A stretch of DNA of 64,000 bases from an uncultured Clostridia bacterium (GTDB lineage: Bacteria; Bacillota; Clostridia; Oscillospirales; Acutalibacteraceae), in NCBI GenBank assembly GCA_947623175.1, contig CANQGK010000008.1, positions 1 through 64,000 on the forward strand, given 5' to 3'. Made by a program: the position numbers and the translations under genes. Of this stretch, positions 1-44,048 are shown piece after piece. A model generated the notes under the pieces. The model worked only from the letters and a program-made list of their open reading frames with translations, was not told the DNA's origin and did no database searches. Within the stretch, counting starts at the first letter, position 1; the number at the start of each line of letters is the position of its first letter.

Positions 1-33
1 CATGGGAATTTTTGTCATTTGTACAAATTTCAT
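1..33 (-). CDS. Leader upstream ORF, copy 1 (partial, runs off left edge)
   Basis: ATG at 33 on the minus strand sits 8 nt behind a perfect AGGAGG (42-47). The eleven visible codons read MKFVQMTKIPM and match the start of the leader ORF at 27621-27731 (MKNAQLTKIPM) and, more loosely, 43003-43089. The window ends just where the other two copies enter a poly-G tract. By analogy a SipW-type surface-protein gene should lie to the left of the window. Translation of the peptide is inferred, not shown. Confidence 0.45.
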   Translation of the reverse strand, partial: MKFVQMTKIPM

Positions 34-25914: not shown

Positions 25915-27528
25915 TTATTCAAATGTTACTTCTACTTCACTGCCGTCAACGTAAACGGTGGTATTGGCATTATCTGTTTTTTCCAAAATATCTATGACAT
26001 TTTCGGCTGTAATGCTTGTTCCGTCTGCCTTTTTGCAGCCGTTAACGTTGATCTCAACGGGGTTATTGGCAGCACCATACCAGAAGTCGGTATCAAAGGT
26101 ACAATTGCTAAATGTTGTATTAGCGTATCCACGAACATTGTTATTACTGTTGCTTGTTCCCTTTGAGAATGTAACATTTTCAAAGGTCGCACCCTTGCAG
26201 GCGCCGCCATACGAAGTCCAGCCGTGGAGCTTGCTGTCCTTAACGGTAAGCGTTCCGGAGCAACCGTCAAAGTTTACGGGATAGGTTGCGTCGATGTCGC
26301 AGTTCTCAACGATAACGTTAGCGGAACAGCTTTCGGCTATAATGGCACGGAATCCGCCGCTTATCTTGGAATTGCGGACAACCAATTCGGTAGCTTTTGA
26401 GGTCACCTGAATGCTTGCTCCCCAAGTATCTGTTCCGCCGCCGTAAATTTCAACGTTGTCAAAGACCGCACTGCCCGAAGTAATATTCAACAGCTTGGTA
26501 CCGTCGTGTTTATGAACGTCGGAGCCGTCGATTTTCAGATTGCTGAAGTTAATGGATTTATCTTCGCCGGGGTTAAAGGAGTAAGGCTTGTCCAAATCGA
26601 TAACCGTTTCCTCCGGGCCGTTTCCGACGATAGCAACGTCAGCCGGAACAGATTCCGGAAGTGTAAATGTACCTGAAGAAAGCTCTACCGTATCGCCGGA
26701 TTTGGCTTCTGTCAAAGCATCATTAAAATCTTCCTGCGAAGCAACGTAAAAATCGGCAGCGGCGTCGGCGTCGTATTGATCGTTGAAGCTGTCTTCCTCA
26801 TACGGAGTCTGGGTAGCCTTGAGATTCAGTCCGAGGTAAATTTCGGGAGCGGTTTCGTCGGTTGCTATTTTCGCGCCGATCCAATTGGCGTCGTTGTCAA
26901 CCGTAGTGGGCATATAAACTGCCAAAGTAAAGGTTTTTTCGCTGTCTCCGGCTCCGCTTTTTGCGGGATAGAGAACCTTTCCGTCGGTTTTAAGGCTGTT
27001 GAGCTTGCCCATTGCCGCCTTTTCTGCGTCGGCGTCGGAAATCCAGAGAGAGTCGCGGTCTGTAACTTCCTTTGTGCCTTCGATCACGTTGAACACGAGG
27101 AACTGCGAGAGCTTAACTTGATTGCCCTTCATGTTGGTATACGTAGCTTCCGGCGTTTTTCCGTCTTCACTGCCGTAAACGGCGGCGCTCAAGCCATATT
27201 CCAGCGCCAAACTGCCGGCGTTGCGAACGCGCAGGTAAACATACTCGGTGTGGCCCGGCTCCCAGAGAGCGTCTTTAAAGAGGCTCGGAGTAGCGGCGTC
27301 TACCGTATGCCAATCCCCATCGGCAATTGTACCGTCTGCCGCTACTGTGGTTCCTGCGGCGGCATACTCTAACTCAACGTCCAAATTACCCGCGGTGATT
27401 TTATTCATGCCGCTCGTAACCGAATCGGTGAACCATGCGAATGTAGAACCTACAAGCATTGCTATACAAATAAGCATGGAAAGCATGCTCATAAGCAAAG
27501 CCTTTTTGGTAGCTTTAGTTTTGTTCAT
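25915..27528 (-). CDS. SipW-type signal peptide protein with beta-helix C-terminus (TasA-like)
   Basis: 537 residues. The N-terminus has a signal peptide running directly into STFAWFTDSVTSG and then NKITAGNLDVEL, the hallmark of proteins cleaved by the SipW signal peptidase, such as biofilm fibre protein TasA and camelysin. Residues about 35-285 form the TasA/camelysin-like domain. The C-terminal half (about 285-520) has the short repeating strands and SNCTF/ENCDI turns of a right-handed parallel beta-helix. It is probably a surface fibre or adhesin. No sipW gene is in the window. The ATG is 12 bases behind GGAG. It is transcribed through a long conserved leader (27529-28180). Confidence 0.85.
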   Translation of the reverse strand: MNKTKATKKALLMSMLSMLICIAMLVGSTFAWFTDSVTSGMNKITAGNLDVELEYAAAGTTVAADGTIADGDWHTVDAATPSLFKDALWEPGHTEYVYLRVRNAGSLALEYGLSAAVYGSEDGKTPEATYTNMKGNQVKLSQFLVFNVIEGTKEVTDRDSLWISDADAEKAAMGKLNSLKTDGKVLYPAKSGAGDSEKTFTLAVYMPTTVDNDANWIGAKIATDETAPEIYLGLNLKATQTPYEEDSFNDQYDADAAADFYVASQEDFNDALTEAKSGDTVELSSGTFTLPESVPADVAIVGNGPEETVIDLDKPYSFNPGEDKSINFSNLKIDGSDVHKHDGTKLLNITSGSAVFDNVEIYGGGTDTWGASIQVTSKATELVVRNSKISGGFRAIIAESCSANVIVENCDIDATYPVNFDGCSGTLTVKDSKLHGWTSYGGACKGATFENVTFSKGTSNSNNNVRGYANTTFSNCTFDTDFWYGAANNPVEINVNGCKKADGTSITAENVIDILEKTDNANTTVYVDGSEVEVTFE

Positions 27529-27620
27529 GTGTATAACACACTCCTTATTTAATTTTGCGGCATTTTTAATATTCGGGGCTCGGACGAAACCCCGATAATG
27601 CCGTCAAAATCGGAGTGCGT

Positions 27621-27731
27621 CTATCTGGTGATTAAGGTGCGGCTTCCCCTACGGAAGTCCGTCAATTTGCCTAATAAGGCGGGCCTTTGCCCCCCCCCCA
27701 TGGGAATTTTTGTCAATTGTGCGTTTTTCAT
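27621..27731 (-). CDS. Leader upstream ORF, copy 2
   Basis: 36 codons from ATG 27731, 9 bases behind a perfect AGGAGG. It starts MKNAQLTKIPMGGG, with the glycines encoded by the ten-G tract, and its TAG stop lies in the conserved box shared with copy 3. Any change in G-tract length would alter the C-terminal frame. It could be a leader peptide whose translation controls the downstream gene, or a chance ORF in a structured RNA. Confidence 0.4.
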   Translation of the reverse strand: MKNAQLTKIPMGGGQRPALLGKLTDFRRGSRTLITR

Positions 27732-28150
27732 AAGAGGAAGCCTCCTTTCTTTTTTTATATTTTCGCCGGTCGGCAATCAAAAGACATAAACCGTCGCTTA
27801 TGTCCTTTGATTCCCGGCTCCATCTGACGAGGGAGCTGTCAGCGTAGCTGACTGAGGGAGAGATTTTTTATTTTAATTTCCTTTTATTTTTTGGTTTTAT
27901 CTCGGCTATACTTTTCCTCTCCCCTCGTCTTTTGCTCCGCAAAAGCCACCCCCCTCGGCAGATGGGGGCAAGGCGCGCCAAGCGCGCAGTTGGGAAAATT
28001 TTGGAAATTTCGGATATAAAGCTTATTTTCGCCGGTCGGCAATTCAAAGGCACGAAAACCTACTGTGCAAACGCTCATGCCCTTGAATCCCCGCCCGTAT
28101 ATTTCATGCGGCAGCCGCTTTTTTATAATAGCGACCGATATACACAATAA

Positions 28151-28179
28151 ATTTTAGCATATCATCCCCGATTTTTCAA
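28151..28179 (-). promoter_or_regulatory. Promoter of the first SipW-type gene
   Basis: Minus strand TTGAAA (28179-28174), 17 bases ending in TGC (extended -10), TAAAAT (28156-28151). Conserved in all three leader copies. Confidence 0.7.
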
Positions 28180-28249
28180 TAGTTTTTTGCAAAAATTCGT
28201 CAAATTCGTCAAATCGGCATAAAAAATCGCCGAAATTTAATAAATGCCA

Positions 28250-29160
28250 AAAAATTTCAATTCAGCGCCGTCTGTGGTTTTTTCTCTCCCTCAGTCGGCA
28301 TACGCTGACAGCTCCCTCGTAAGCTGAGCCAAGGATTAATGATCTAAATCCTGTTTTTTAAGCTACAGATTTGATAAATGCTTAATTTTCAAAAGATTTT
28401 AAATTTATCCTGCGCGCTTGCGCGCCTTGCTCCCATCTGACGAGGGGGGTGGATTTTGCGCAGCAAAAGACAGGGGGAGAGAAAAAGTAAAACCGAGATG
28501 CAACTAAAGATTATAAAAAAGCCTCCCTTGCCTAAAGGGAGGTGGCGGCGTAGCCGACGGAGGGATTAACGGCACTAAAGCAAAACTCTCAGCCTCACGG
28601 GTAAGCAGATATCCCACCACCAACTAACGTTGGTCCCCCTCCCTTTAGGCAAGGGAGGCTTTTCGGGATTGTTGCTTTTCACACTGCTTGAAAGTTTAAA
28701 TTCAGCATATCTGTACCTTTTCTCTCCCTCAGTCGGCTACGCCGACAGCTCCCTCGTCAGATGGAGCCAAGAATAGGTCAAGCTTTTTGAACCTCTGCAT
28801 GAAAATATAGCTTTTAATGTTGCTAAAACTTGTAAAGTCTATTGTAGCGATTTTTTTAACTATAAAATTTCAGAAAATGCTTAATTTTCAGAAGATTTTA
28901 AATTTATCCTGCGCGCGTGCGCGCCTTGCCTCCACCTGACGGGGGAGGTGGATTTGCCGTAGGCAAAGACGGAGGGAGAGAAAAGGTAAAGCCTTAAGAA
29001 GAAACTAAAAAATCATCCTGCGCGCGTGCGCGCCTTGCCCCCATCTGACGAGGGGGGTGGCTTTTGCGCAGCAAAAGACAGGGGGAGAGAAAAAGTAAAG
29101 CATAGAAGAACCTAAAATTATTTTTAATTTTTTACAATTCGTCCGCGAAGCGGACACCGC
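28250..29160. repeat. Intergenic repeat cluster 3
   Basis: No gene. Two reverse-oriented family-B elements lie at about 28277-28490 and 28715-28990, with a complete family-A element (28521-28659, 139 bp, inverted ends) between them. A family-B half follows (about 29010-29100), then the short GTCCGC...GCGGAC palindrome near 29141. The cluster separates the SipW-type leader from the lipoprotein gene. Confidence 0.85.
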
Positions 29161-41021: not shown

Positions 41022-42887
41022 TCAGCCCGCTGTTACAACCCAATAGTCGCCGTCTTTAACAGCTTTGCTGTCTTTGGCAAGATATTTTTCCGGATCAAAT
41101 GAATATTTACCGGAAACGATAGTAACACGACCGTCACCTGAAACCGTAAGGTCTTTATATGTTGTCCTTCCAGTGGTGTTCGTATCGTTTGTAACTGTGC
41201 AGTCGGTAAGAGTTACCGATGTATTACCCTCAACATTCAGTCCGGCAGACAATACACTGCCCGTAATGTTAACAACGCCGGCGTCTTCCAAACGAACCTG
41301 CTTGTTTGTAACGGTGGTATTCTTAATAGCTACCTCATGACTGCCGCCTTGACCGGTAATATAAAGCGCTTCGGGATCCGCTTTTTTAGTTCCGTTCTTA
41401 TAAACCGGACCAACGCTTCCCGTAAATACGCAGCCGTCGATCAAAACCGTGCTGTTAAAAGGCTTAATGCGGTTTGCACCGCCATAAGTCTTAACGTTTT
41501 TAATAGTGATGCTGCCCTCCGCTGTCTCATTCATAAAAATCTTAATCGGACTGCAATAACCGTATATTTGAGGACCGGCTCCTGTATAGTTACCGGAAGG
41601 AGCCCAAGTGTCTTTTCCGGGATCGGCGTAATTATCATCTTTATCTACCCAATCGCCATTTTTGAAAGTGCCAAGGGTTAGATTATCGAGCAATACATTT
41701 TTCGCTCCGTATACGTCAACGTCGCAGTAGTGAGAATAAAATGAGTTCATCACACCGTTGCGCAATTCAAAATCAAAGCCCGAGCCATATAGATTTTGCG
41801 CCTTCATAAGGATCCAATTGGCAGTAGCGGTATGTCCGTTCAGATCTAAACAGTAAATACCGTTATCTTTGCCTATGCCTTCGATGCCCTTATATCCTTC
41901 CGTACCGATGCTGTCAAAATTATAATCACTTGTTAAAACGCCCGGCGTACCGTCGGCAGGAAGACGTTCAAGTATACTAACCTGACGTCCACCCTCTTTT
42001 GATTGAAAATACTCAACCTCATCCCCGTCGCCGATTCGGAAGGGATAGCCGGCTGCGGCTTTTTCTTCATCCTCTTTAATTCTTGCCGCTTTCTTTTCCG
42101 CTTTTAAGAAGGGCTTATTGTCGTAATTCTTGTCAAAGGAGTCAAATTCAAACGGAACCTGTGCGGCGTCTAAGTTAACCGAAAGGTCTATGCTGAGCGC
42201 ACCCGGTTTTGCGTCTTCGTCCTTTACGTCGTCGGCGTACGCTCCGTTTTTAAGGTTGTAAAGATCGTCGTCGGCGCCGGGCTCCCAATAAAGCACAACG
42301 GTGAAGGCTTCTTCTACCGAATTCCAACCCTCTTCGCCGGCGGGAGCGGTCGCATCCTCGGGTAAAAGCTTACCGGATTTTACCGTTTCGGCGCTTACGT
42401 AATCCTTTAAGGGAATCATATCGTCCTTAACAGCTTCGATCATTGCGTCGCGCGAAGCGTAGGCAGCGGTTTCAACGAGGGCGATTTTCAGCACGTCCGC
42501 AAGGGTTCTTTCGGTTGCGGTACCGTCGGCGGTAACCACGTGATTTGCCGCGTCGGTGGTGATGGCGAGCTCGTACTTAAGCGCCAGCGTGCCTTCGTTT
42601 TTAACGGTGAAATCCTCGTAAGCCACAACGCCCGGCTCCCATTTTATAGGTTGACCCTTGGCGTCTACAAACAAATCTGCGGCTTTGTCAACGCTCGTCG
42701 CTTTTTCAACAAAAGCGTTGGTATGGTAAAGCTCAACGTCCAAATTACCGGCGACTATCTTATTTTGACCGCTCGTCACACTGTCGGTAAACCATGCGAA
42801 GGTGGAGCCCACGAGCATTGCAACACACAGAAGCAGTGAAATCGCGCTTGTAAGGAGCGCTCTTTTGGTATTTTTGCTGTTTGTCAT
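41022..42887 (-). CDS. Second SipW-type signal peptide protein with beta-helix C-terminus
   Basis: 621 residues from ATG 42887 (AGGAG 8 bases upstream; the GTG at 42896 is less likely). The N-terminus closely matches the protein at 25915-27528: signal peptide, STFAWFTDSVTSGQNKIVAGNLDVEL, then a TasA/camelysin-like domain (about 35-275) rich in Lys and Asp. The C-terminal region (about 290-615) differs in sequence but again looks like a parallel beta-helix (NGVMNSFYSHYCDVDVYGAK, IKNVKTYGGANRIKP). Paralogues sharing leader and N-terminus but with different tails suggest a variable surface-protein family. Confidence 0.85.
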   Translation of the reverse strand: MTNSKNTKRALLTSAISLLLCVAMLVGSTFAWFTDSVTSGQNKIVAGNLDVELYHTNAFVEKATSVDKAADLFVDAKGQPIKWEPGVVAYEDFTVKNEGTLALKYELAITTDAANHVVTADGTATERTLADVLKIALVETAAYASRDAMIEAVKDDMIPLKDYVSAETVKSGKLLPEDATAPAGEEGWNSVEEAFTVVLYWEPGADDDLYNLKNGAYADDVKDEDAKPGALSIDLSVNLDAAQVPFEFDSFDKNYDNKPFLKAEKKAARIKEDEEKAAAGYPFRIGDGDEVEYFQSKEGGRQVSILERLPADGTPGVLTSDYNFDSIGTEGYKGIEGIGKDNGIYCLDLNGHTATANWILMKAQNLYGSGFDFELRNGVMNSFYSHYCDVDVYGAKNVLLDNLTLGTFKNGDWVDKDDNYADPGKDTWAPSGNYTGAGPQIYGYCSPIKIFMNETAEGSITIKNVKTYGGANRIKPFNSTVLIDGCVFTGSVGPVYKNGTKKADPEALYITGQGGSHEVAIKNTTVTNKQVRLEDAGVVNITGSVLSAGLNVEGNTSVTLTDCTVTNDTNTTGRTTYKDLTVSGDGRVTIVSGKYSFDPEKYLAKDSKAVKDGDYWVVTAG

Positions 42888-43002
42888 AATTTTCACTCCT
42901 AATTAGTTTTAGGCATTTGGAGTCAATTTACGGGTTCGCCGCTTAAAGGCGCGCCCGCAAATGCCGTTAAAACCGGAGCGCGTCTATGCTGTTATAATTC
43001 GG

Positions 43003-43089
43003 CTAACCCTTAAGTGTTTGGCTATTTTGCTGAATAGGGCGGATCGGTGCCCCCCCCCATGCGCATTTTTTCGTTTGTGCAATTTTCAT
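43003..43089 (-). CDS. Leader upstream ORF, copy 3
   Basis: 28 codons from ATG 43089 behind AGGAGG (9-base spacing). It starts MKIAQTKKCAWGG. The first codons resemble copies 1 and 2 (MKxxQxTK or similar), but a one-base indel before the G tract and a nine- rather than ten-G tract put it in another frame. Translation unproven. Confidence 0.35.
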   Translation of the reverse strand: MKIAQTKKCAWGGAPIRPIQQNSQTLKG

Positions 43090-43957: not shown

Positions 43958-44048
43958 GGCGGAGAGAGGGGGATTCGAACCCCCGAACGGGTATTAGCCG
44001 TTACACGATTTCCAATCGTGCGCCTTAGGCCAGCTCAGCCATCTCTCC
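43957..44048 (-). tRNA. tRNA-Ser (anticodon GGA)
   Basis: Acceptor stem GGAGAGA / TCTCTCC, D arm GGCTGAGCTGGCC, anticodon stem CACGATT with loop TTGGAAA (anticodon GGA, reading UCC/UCU), a long class-II variable arm (TAACGGCTAATACCCGTTC region) and a T arm with GGTTCGAATCC. CCA is encoded (44-strand positions 43959-43957). Its length of 92 nt fits tRNA-Ser. Confidence 0.97.

Follow-up and report, generated by a model that had tools for sequence, protein, structure and literature searches.

The leader in front of a SipW-type surface protein gene of an uncultured Clostridia bacterium is probably a phase-variable switch, in which slippage in a G-run sets whether a ribosome arrives at an RNA lock on the Shine-Dalgarno sequence (SD) of the surface gene, arrival being the ON state. 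The switch would have two parts: (i) a short ORF that has an SD of its own and contains about 10 consecutive G near codons 11-14, where replication slippage would alter the length of the run and hence the frame of the remaining leader ORF; (ii) the lock, i.e., a box at the leader stop that would pair with the surface-gene SD and hide it. In the right register, the ribosome would terminate at the stop adjoining the box and cover the stop codon and about 9 further bases, leaving the box unpaired and the SD free (ON). In a wrong register, the leader would end early and the lock would stay shut (OFF). The peptide itself seems irrelevant, selection acting presumably on the arrival of the ribosome. 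With at least 31 independent copies, cells of one clone would carry differing sets of surface proteins.

The window, i.e., the whole stretch of DNA that was analysed (64,000 bases, G000:C8:1-64000), belongs to a genome of 2.38 Mb in 54 contigs. It contains two complete leaders and one truncated by the contig end, all on the minus strand; copy 1 is cut within its leader ORF because the window begins at the contig end. The original prediction described three related minus-strand leaders with an extended −10 promoter (17-base spacing), a short ORF behind AGGAGG, a poly-G run and a conserved box. All three leaders were located, as were a promoter-like site at 28179-28151, the AGGAGG with its short ORF, the G-run and the box at 27624-27597. 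The features of the window copies are the following.

28151..28179, minus strand: promoter-like site of copy 2 (TTGAAA, 17 bases, TAAAAT preceded by TG; 10 of 12 matches)
28036..28092, minus strand: first copy of the 5' hairpin H0 (ATTCAAGGGCA ... TGCCTTTGAAT), predicted fold
27771..27813, minus strand: second copy of the 5' hairpin H0 (AATCAAAGGACAT ... ATGTCTTTTGATT), predicted fold
27741..27745, minus strand: SD of the copy-2 leader ORF (GGAGG)
27621..27731, minus strand: leader ORF of copy 2, 36 codons and TAG (MKNAQLTKIPMGGGQRPALLGKLTDFRRGSRTLITR); as assembled, it is in register with the box stop
27690..27699, minus strand: G-run of 10 G within the copy-2 leader ORF, proposed slippage site
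27621..27623, minus strand: stop codon (TAG) closing the copy-2 leader ORF, on the 5' border of the anti-SD arm
27611..27622, minus strand: putative anti-Shine-Dalgarno box (AGACGCACTCCG), partner of the surface-gene SD or alternatively of 27595-27583
27597..27610, minus strand: 5' arm of the supporting helix (ATTTTG.CGGCATT), from covariation
27583..27595, minus strand: SD-mimic segment, with which the box may pair instead (helix A)
27552..27564, minus strand: 3' arm of the supporting helix (AATGCCG.CAAAAT), from covariation
27536..27544, minus strand: surface-gene SD (GGAGTGTGT), predicted by folding to be masked by the box
25915..27528, minus strand: SipW-type surface protein gene, 537 aa (TIGR04088, 27.7 bits for a cut-off of 19; PF12389, 23.7 bits for a cut-off of 22.5)
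42984..43089, minus strand: copy-3 leader ORF as far as the box stop, containing a G-run of 9 (43058-43050); as assembled, it is not in register
42885..42987, minus strand: anti-SD hairpin of copy 3 (R1 56.2 bits, this copy being included in the alignment of the model)
41022..42887, minus strand: SipW-type surface protein gene downstream of the copy-3 leader, 621 aa (TIGR04088, 24.9 bits)
261 to about 221, minus strand: H0 of copy 1, its arm matching exactly at 245-261
1..33, minus strand: start of the copy-1 leader ORF, cut by the contig end

From 5' to 3', the order is thus: SD of the leader ORF (SD1) with the leader start, G-run, stop, box, hairpin, surface-gene SD and surface-gene start. 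The «GC hairpin before the gene» of the prediction makes up the inner portion of a single long hairpin, the end of which lies on the SD. On its own, the promoter match of copy 2 is weak, since shuffles yield 1.4 such sites by chance; similar sites lie upstream in copies 1 and 3, by reading. The region upstream of SD1 is variable and contains intergenic repeats, with an H0-like arm in 18/31 own copies (a fuzzy match, counted without a chance control). The hairpin predicted as common to copies 1 and 2 is present, but H0 was rejected as a constant part of the leader. H0 is a hairpin of 15-20 bp (such as ATCAAAGGGCAT...), 5' of the leader ORF, with many compensating changes; H0-like hairpins also occur in relatives of other genera (L103 near 710-725; L145, L165, L169, L205). 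An H0-like arm, from 25880 to about 25815, directly follows the gene 25915-27528; next comes the dispersed CCTCCCTTTAGGCAAGGGAGGC repeat, which seems to break up the hairpin.

With the copy-2 leader as query, BLAST matched the genome 47 times: 34 leaders account for 35 rows, and the remaining 12 are short matches to the first 36 query bases, i.e., the H0 hairpin. The genome contains 31 complete leaders and at least three cut ones (C17:1, C8:1 and C49:8015); the count of three predicted earlier holds for the window and not for the genome. A covariance model of the region from box to start (R1, 88 positions) was built from 28 distinct own copies. Its hits were 31 full ones, the truncated copy at C17 and an artefact on the reverse strand; since the full hits include the sequences from which the model was built, this only shows that the genome has no further copies. 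More than 31 copies probably exist, because many contigs end inside SipW-type genes or leaders (C8:1, C17:1, C49:8015, C36:1, C44 end, C14:1, C24 end, C34 end). The mean DNA identity between own copies of the leader is 0.80. As these copies are paralogues, counts among them are not independent.

All 31 complete leaders sit before SipW-type genes, with a TIGR04088 match directly behind each. It should be noted that the script that collected the copies demanded a start codon and the TFAWF motif downstream; R1, which is blind to the gene, returned the identical set of 31 leaders. In the whole genome, TIGR04088 (SipW-type signal peptide) is above its curated cut-off at 39 places, i.e., 31 behind a complete leader, C49 with a leader end at the contig edge, and seven more. 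Among these seven places, five were read (C5, C47, C24, C34 and C14:22); C24, C34 and C14:22 are truncated by contig ends, and C44:14903 and C36:6 are, by their coordinates, about 5 bases from contig ends. C5 (L198, with ample upstream sequence) and C47 (L202, with a short stretch) look like a second class of SipW-type genes with another 5' region (AAATAAAAATTAAGGAGGTAAA...), which has neither leader ORF nor G-run. Both surface genes of the window exceed the TIGR04088 cut-off. The SipW signal peptidase (TIGR02228) is found at G000:C14:62315-62803 (L196), with 64.6 bits for a cut-off of 51.85. Its gene lies about 0.9 kb upstream of leader C14:61312, and that leader directly abuts another coding stretch. 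The surface proteins have a mean identity of 0.82 over their first 50 residues and of 0.30 over the remainder. The leader, at 0.80 DNA identity, is more conserved than these protein tails, as had been predicted.

The G-run is 9-13 bases long across the 31 own leaders (two runs are interrupted by T), with lengths clustering at 10. In the 225,619 bases around the copies, the runs of at least 8 G on either strand are all followed by a box within 170 bases (30/30). Exactly one register puts the first stop between −7 and +3 bases from the anti-SD arm in 31/31 own copies, while shuffling the letters between G-run and arm gives an expectation of 5.7/31. Excluded from this test and from the duplex search described below were L101 (no G-run), L105 and C17:1 (cut), the duplicates L118/L204, and L205, which was detected only afterwards. 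The frame of the box stop is open in 31/31 by construction, the stop having been so chosen, and this carries no evidential weight. Most own copies have TAG as the box stop; TAA occurs in C14_61312 and in RGIG1913_L154, and TGA in G205_L103.

As assembled, 22/31 own leader ORFs end within 4 bases of the arm start; one leader in register, C29_6951, ends one codon ahead of the usual stop. The other nine reach the arm (within 6 bases) only in a different register: six end 21-51 bases before it and three (C8_80188, C33_1803 and C6_84635) run into or through the lock, by 19, 19 and 61 bases. In 15/31 own copies, one wrong frame stays open to the box, ending 16-19 bases into the lock in 13 of them and 61-76 bases in 2. 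A ribosome in a wrong register that is open past the box may also unlock, i.e., in 13 to 15 of the 31 own copies.

The distance from the end of the G-run to the stop is 69, 63, 66, 75 or 144 bases, i.e., a multiple of 3, in 28/31 own copies; the exceptions are a divergent pair of copies with 59 and one copy with 68, which has an 11-G run. Indels past the G-run are almost all multiples of 3. In other words, when copies and species are compared, the length of the homopolymeric tract varies by frame-breaking units and the rest keeps the frame, as in a simple-sequence contingency (phase-variable) locus. The leader ORF at G000:C6:84438-84720 (L055) has 75 extra bases past the G-run and keeps its frame to the box stop. 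Pairs of own copies with at least 95% identity do not differ in G length (0/4), and 11/28 do at 90-95%; G-run lengths in metagenome assemblies can be wrong. Replication slippage in the G-run is suggested by these comparisons of paralogues and relatives. Two leaders have a T-interrupted run (GGGTGGGG...), in L058 (G000:C38) with boxes at 851 and 14802; both are in register and look, from their sequence, as if they were locked in one state.

Long G-runs can cause polymerase slippage. The run could thus be a programmed slippage site of polymerase or ribosome, every copy giving a mixture of frames and a fixed intermediate level, with which the clustering of lengths at 10 is consistent. It is an improbable reading, since a fixed slippage site has no need of leaders out of register (9/31 own, 8/16 relatives), and the two T-interrupted runs in register are what is expected if the run is a liability that can be locked.

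A duplex search of the region past the G-run against the SD region, with stop codons ignored, gave the box as the best 5' arm in 31/31 own copies. The conserved box of the original prediction is thus present and, judging from its complementarity, it is an anti-SD that pairs with the SD of the surface gene. The covariation alignment, fitted with R1, comprises 49 hits, 46 of them distinct; the pair counts retain L057:5234-5319:+ (alignment A2; the opposite strand of a real copy) and L101. In the anti-SD/SD helix 5/7 pairs are altered on both sides, and in the supporting helix 8/12. The covariation score of the whole structure is 0.208, vs. 0.092 (sd 0.007) when shuffled and at most 0.057 when slid; these figures lean upward because the alignment is fitted to the structure and its rows are related. 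The most telling cases of covariation are the changes of box/SD pairs between genera: CACTCC/GGAGTG in the own genome, CTTCTCC/GGAGAA in G205 and GCCTCC/GGAGGT in RGIG8618.

The own copies being paralogues with 80% leader identity, it might be proposed that the 5' sequence is conserved only through copying or gene conversion of the surface genes, and is structured without any switching. We consider this very unlikely: sequence-divergent relatives keep the geometry and compensate the pairs, and the indels past the run, nearly all multiples of 3, also argue against it.

The box has two possible partners, since the second helix, formed by the box and the SD-mimic in the adjacent loop, also covaries (0.205 vs. 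0.130 shuffled and at most 0.075 slid), with pairs such as AGATGC/GCATCT in Lapin-012 and AACTGC/GCAGTT in RGIG8618. Because of this second covarying partner, the leader RNA may be a true two-state switch. Hairpin A was rejected as ground state: it folds less stably than the lock, and the box hairpin is in the best SD-free fold in only 6/46 sequences. It is thus kept as an alternative box partner only. A candidate pairing between SD1 and the distal leader ORF was also spotted by eye.

The release of the SD was predicted by folding the span from the stop codon to codon 11 of the surface gene in 46 sequences, the rest of the mRNA and the proteins being ignored. When 12 bases, counted from the stop codon, are kept unpaired as they would be beneath a terminating ribosome, the mean predicted probability of an open SD goes from 0.06 to 0.39; it is up by more than 0.1 in 40/46 and down by more than 0.1 in 1/46. 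The predicted cost of freeing the SD goes from 8.7 to 3.2 kcal/mol when the bases from the stop are covered. In these calculations the folds of G008_L072, L145b and L154 begin at a misplaced point, because the automatic arm fell elsewhere. From the fixed register of the box stop, the covarying lock and the predicted opening of the SD, we infer that a ribosome ending at the box would unlock the gene, release of the SD being ON.

The same slippage could act on transcription, the terminating ribosome blocking a terminator or the entry of Rho and the SD pairing being secondary. An untranslated leader could be accessible to Rho, and the pil1 precedent (see below) operates on transcription. This mode of action is rather unlikely: (i) no terminator-like site was found at 27500-28250, i.e., in copy 2, where shuffles yield 1.4; (ii) what comes after the copy-2 hairpin is A-rich sequence and then the SD, not a U-run; (iii) the SD is itself part of a covarying helix. 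An intrinsic terminator was rejected for the copy-2 leader, the stem of which ends on the SD.

The leader peptide has an MK..Q start and a GGG that are common to many copies, and its sequence varies otherwise. The pN/pS of the leader frame is 0.91 past the G-run and 1.02 ahead of it; the control frames have 1.14 and 0.96 past the run, and 4.30 and 0.76 ahead of it (the alignment is anchored at the 3' end and crude for copies with indels). As the control frames are not clearly unlike the leader frame, the test only fails to detect selection on the peptide. Among the own copies, pN/pS thus gives no sign of such selection, though indels preserve the frame. A functional leader peptide is unsupported, with pN/pS near 1. 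In erm- or tna-style attenuators, a signal makes the ribosome stall on its nascent leader peptide; if the leader were of this kind, the G-run would be only a part of the peptide. The MK..Q start and the GGG in many copies would agree with this (MK..Q is partly imposed by the search in relatives); the pN/pS near 1, the lack of C-terminal residues conserved between genera and the many copies out of register make it highly improbable. A conserved stalling peptide of the erm/cat type was not found among the own copies, given a pN/pS of about 1 and a variable peptide.

Searched against Rfam at gathering cut-offs, the whole window gave only a tRNA at 43960-44048 and nothing in the leader; at relaxed thresholds, nothing in the leader came near a curated cut-off. 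A riboswitch or another known RNA was therefore rejected. The original prediction of a regulatory RNA or leader-peptide system outside the known riboswitches agrees with the absence of an Rfam family at cut-off, with the covarying stems (0.208 vs. 0.092 shuffled) and with the position of all 31 leaders before SipW-type genes. The setting of the leader frame by the G-run and the leader stop that adjoins the box were no part of that prediction. The search that it proposed, of the whole genome and of relatives, gave these 31 complete own copies and the leader in nine other assemblies. The stems covary and 31/31 leaders are SipW-linked, so that scattered intergenic repeats unlinked to SipW-type genes and without covariation, given as the refutation, do not describe the data.

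The distribution of the leader is patchy. It is found in ten assemblies including the own one, RGIG8618, RGIG1913 and SI.A105 being the same sequences as G674, G177 and G205. R1 hits were obtained in 2/70 genus genomes (own and G008) and 3/200 family genomes (own, G086 and G205); across many genomes, R1 was run with stricter filters by which weak matches are lost. A first pattern scan of the family, whose pattern recovered only 3 own copies, gave 5/398 genomes: own, G205 and G215 are real, and the hits in G301 and G418 looked like chance. The scan of the order gave 3/394, i.e., own and G674 as real hits, and G556, rejected because it is within what reads as an ordinary gene. A second pattern gave 4/398 in the family (own, G205, G177 and G076). 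The scan of named genomes, which may omit the species of the window, gave 53 stretches; nine, from six assemblies (Lapin-020 bin111, Lapin-012 bin86, RGIG8618, RGIG1913, RGIG4637 and SI.A105), were judged to be a leader with gene. Forty-three others were judged not to be leaders (by script, five by reading), L150 and L175 being cut by contig ends; L169 resembles a leader but is cut. Among 15 stretches from a viral scan (11 judged by script, 4 read), none is a leader with a SipW-type gene, L181 being cut by the contig. A second assembly of one strain was sought among 118 relatives of G177, and only G177 itself and 22 bases in G091 were found. The MK..Q start is imposed in the scan-found relatives, because the order, named-genome and second-family patterns required it.

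Some of the nine other assemblies have the same plan with quite different box sequences. For 15 relatives, a register abutting the box was found by script in 11, vs. 3.3 expected from shuffles, and by eye in three more (G008_L072, Lapin012_L145b and RGIG1913_L154, where the automatic arm lies elsewhere). No register abuts the arm in G205_L102 and two do in Lapin020_L162. As assembled, 4/15 relatives are in register by script and 7/15 with the three by eye; G076, found later, is in register by eye. In G086 (L101), the lock precedes a SipW-type gene with neither leader ORF nor G-run, and a promoter-like stretch lies shortly upstream of it. The gene that follows the leader in G215 is not of SipW type: an ORF of 59 aa with a signal peptide is followed by BspA-type leucine-rich repeats (LRR_5, 334.6 bits), the gene being split between two frames as assembled (L107 1657-1836 and 1761-3089).

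We lean, if only slightly, towards a wider reading, taken as a whole: the G-run leader ORF and a two-state SD lock would form a portable cassette, copied before at least 31 genes and also before the unrelated BspA-type leucine-rich-repeat gene of G215, giving phase variation at the level of translation and a heritable yet reversible, combinatorial surface code.

Other G-runs were seen during the scans. In L178 at about 5567 (a Marvinbryantia formatexigens MAG), a 9-G run lies in an N-terminus (VKYTQIVKKLTGGGSHLTRLG) that resembles the leader peptide, yet is continuous with a long ORF. Five 9-G runs in a near-identical N-terminal stretch occur in Bacilli MAGs Lapin-026 and Lapin-027 (L133, L136, L142, L168 and L171); in the four copies that were read, the start frame stops shortly past the run, before a long stretch resembling a surface protein. 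In L137 at about 3548 (bacterium RGIG9312) and L159 at about 5037 (a Gastranaerophilales MAG), a pilin-like FTLAEVL.TLGIIG sequence is preceded by a short ORF with a G-run.

Several known systems share a part of this plan. In uof-fur of E. coli, the initiation region of a gene is opened when the small ORF ahead of it is translated, and in the same manner upstream translation would open the surface gene here; translationally coupled upstream ORFs are not known as phase-variable. In erm/cat-type translation attenuation, a leader ORF is likewise combined with a hairpin that sequesters the SD, and a drug induces stalling within the ORF. In contrast, the end point of the present leaders is set by the DNA.

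Compared by description, the closest known analogue is the transcriptional pil1/pil3 leader of Streptococcus gallolyticus. Changes in the GCAGA repeat of pil1 make its leader peptide longer, so that a transcription terminator is opened by the ribosome (Danne et al. 2014, PMC3894217). In both cases, repeat length in a short upstream ORF sets the frame before a surface gene (31/31 own copies here), and a ribosome ending at or inside the downstream stem-loop opens it, or would open it here, with the surface structure on. The pil1/pil3 system has pentanucleotide GCAGA repeats, a transcription terminator and two loci. The present leaders have a mononucleotide G-run instead of GCAGA tandem repeats, a putative SD-sequestering hairpin, a single stop that keeps its place at the lock, SipW-type genes and, in one genome, 31 complete copies; past the ORF of copy 2 (27500-28250) there is no terminator-like stem-loop and the stem ends on the SD. 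The leader would thus work like pil1 but, differing in the repeat and in the step targeted, it is not a member of the pil1 type. In the pilus genes of Bifidobacterium breve, G-tracts of about 10-12 set the expression of surface appendages (PMC9187656). G-tract length would control surface structures of gut bacteria in both cases; the B. breve tract is inside the pilus gene, where in-frame lengths fuse two ORF halves, whereas the present G-run is in a separate leader ORF that encodes no part of the surface protein. A literature search on SipW, or on leader peptides or upstream ORFs, with phase variation found no such system, in a coverage that is thin for subscription journals and preprints.

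If the proposed switch is true, an uncultured gut-type lineage of Clostridia runs at least 31 independent random switches on its surface proteins of SipW type, and a count of Gs in the DNA would tell the state of every switch. The surface heterogeneity of uncultured bacteria would then be measurable in long-read metagenomes. Slippage would be placed in a disposable leader ORF, which leaves the protein free to vary, and the unit made of G-run leader and lock could precede unrelated genes.
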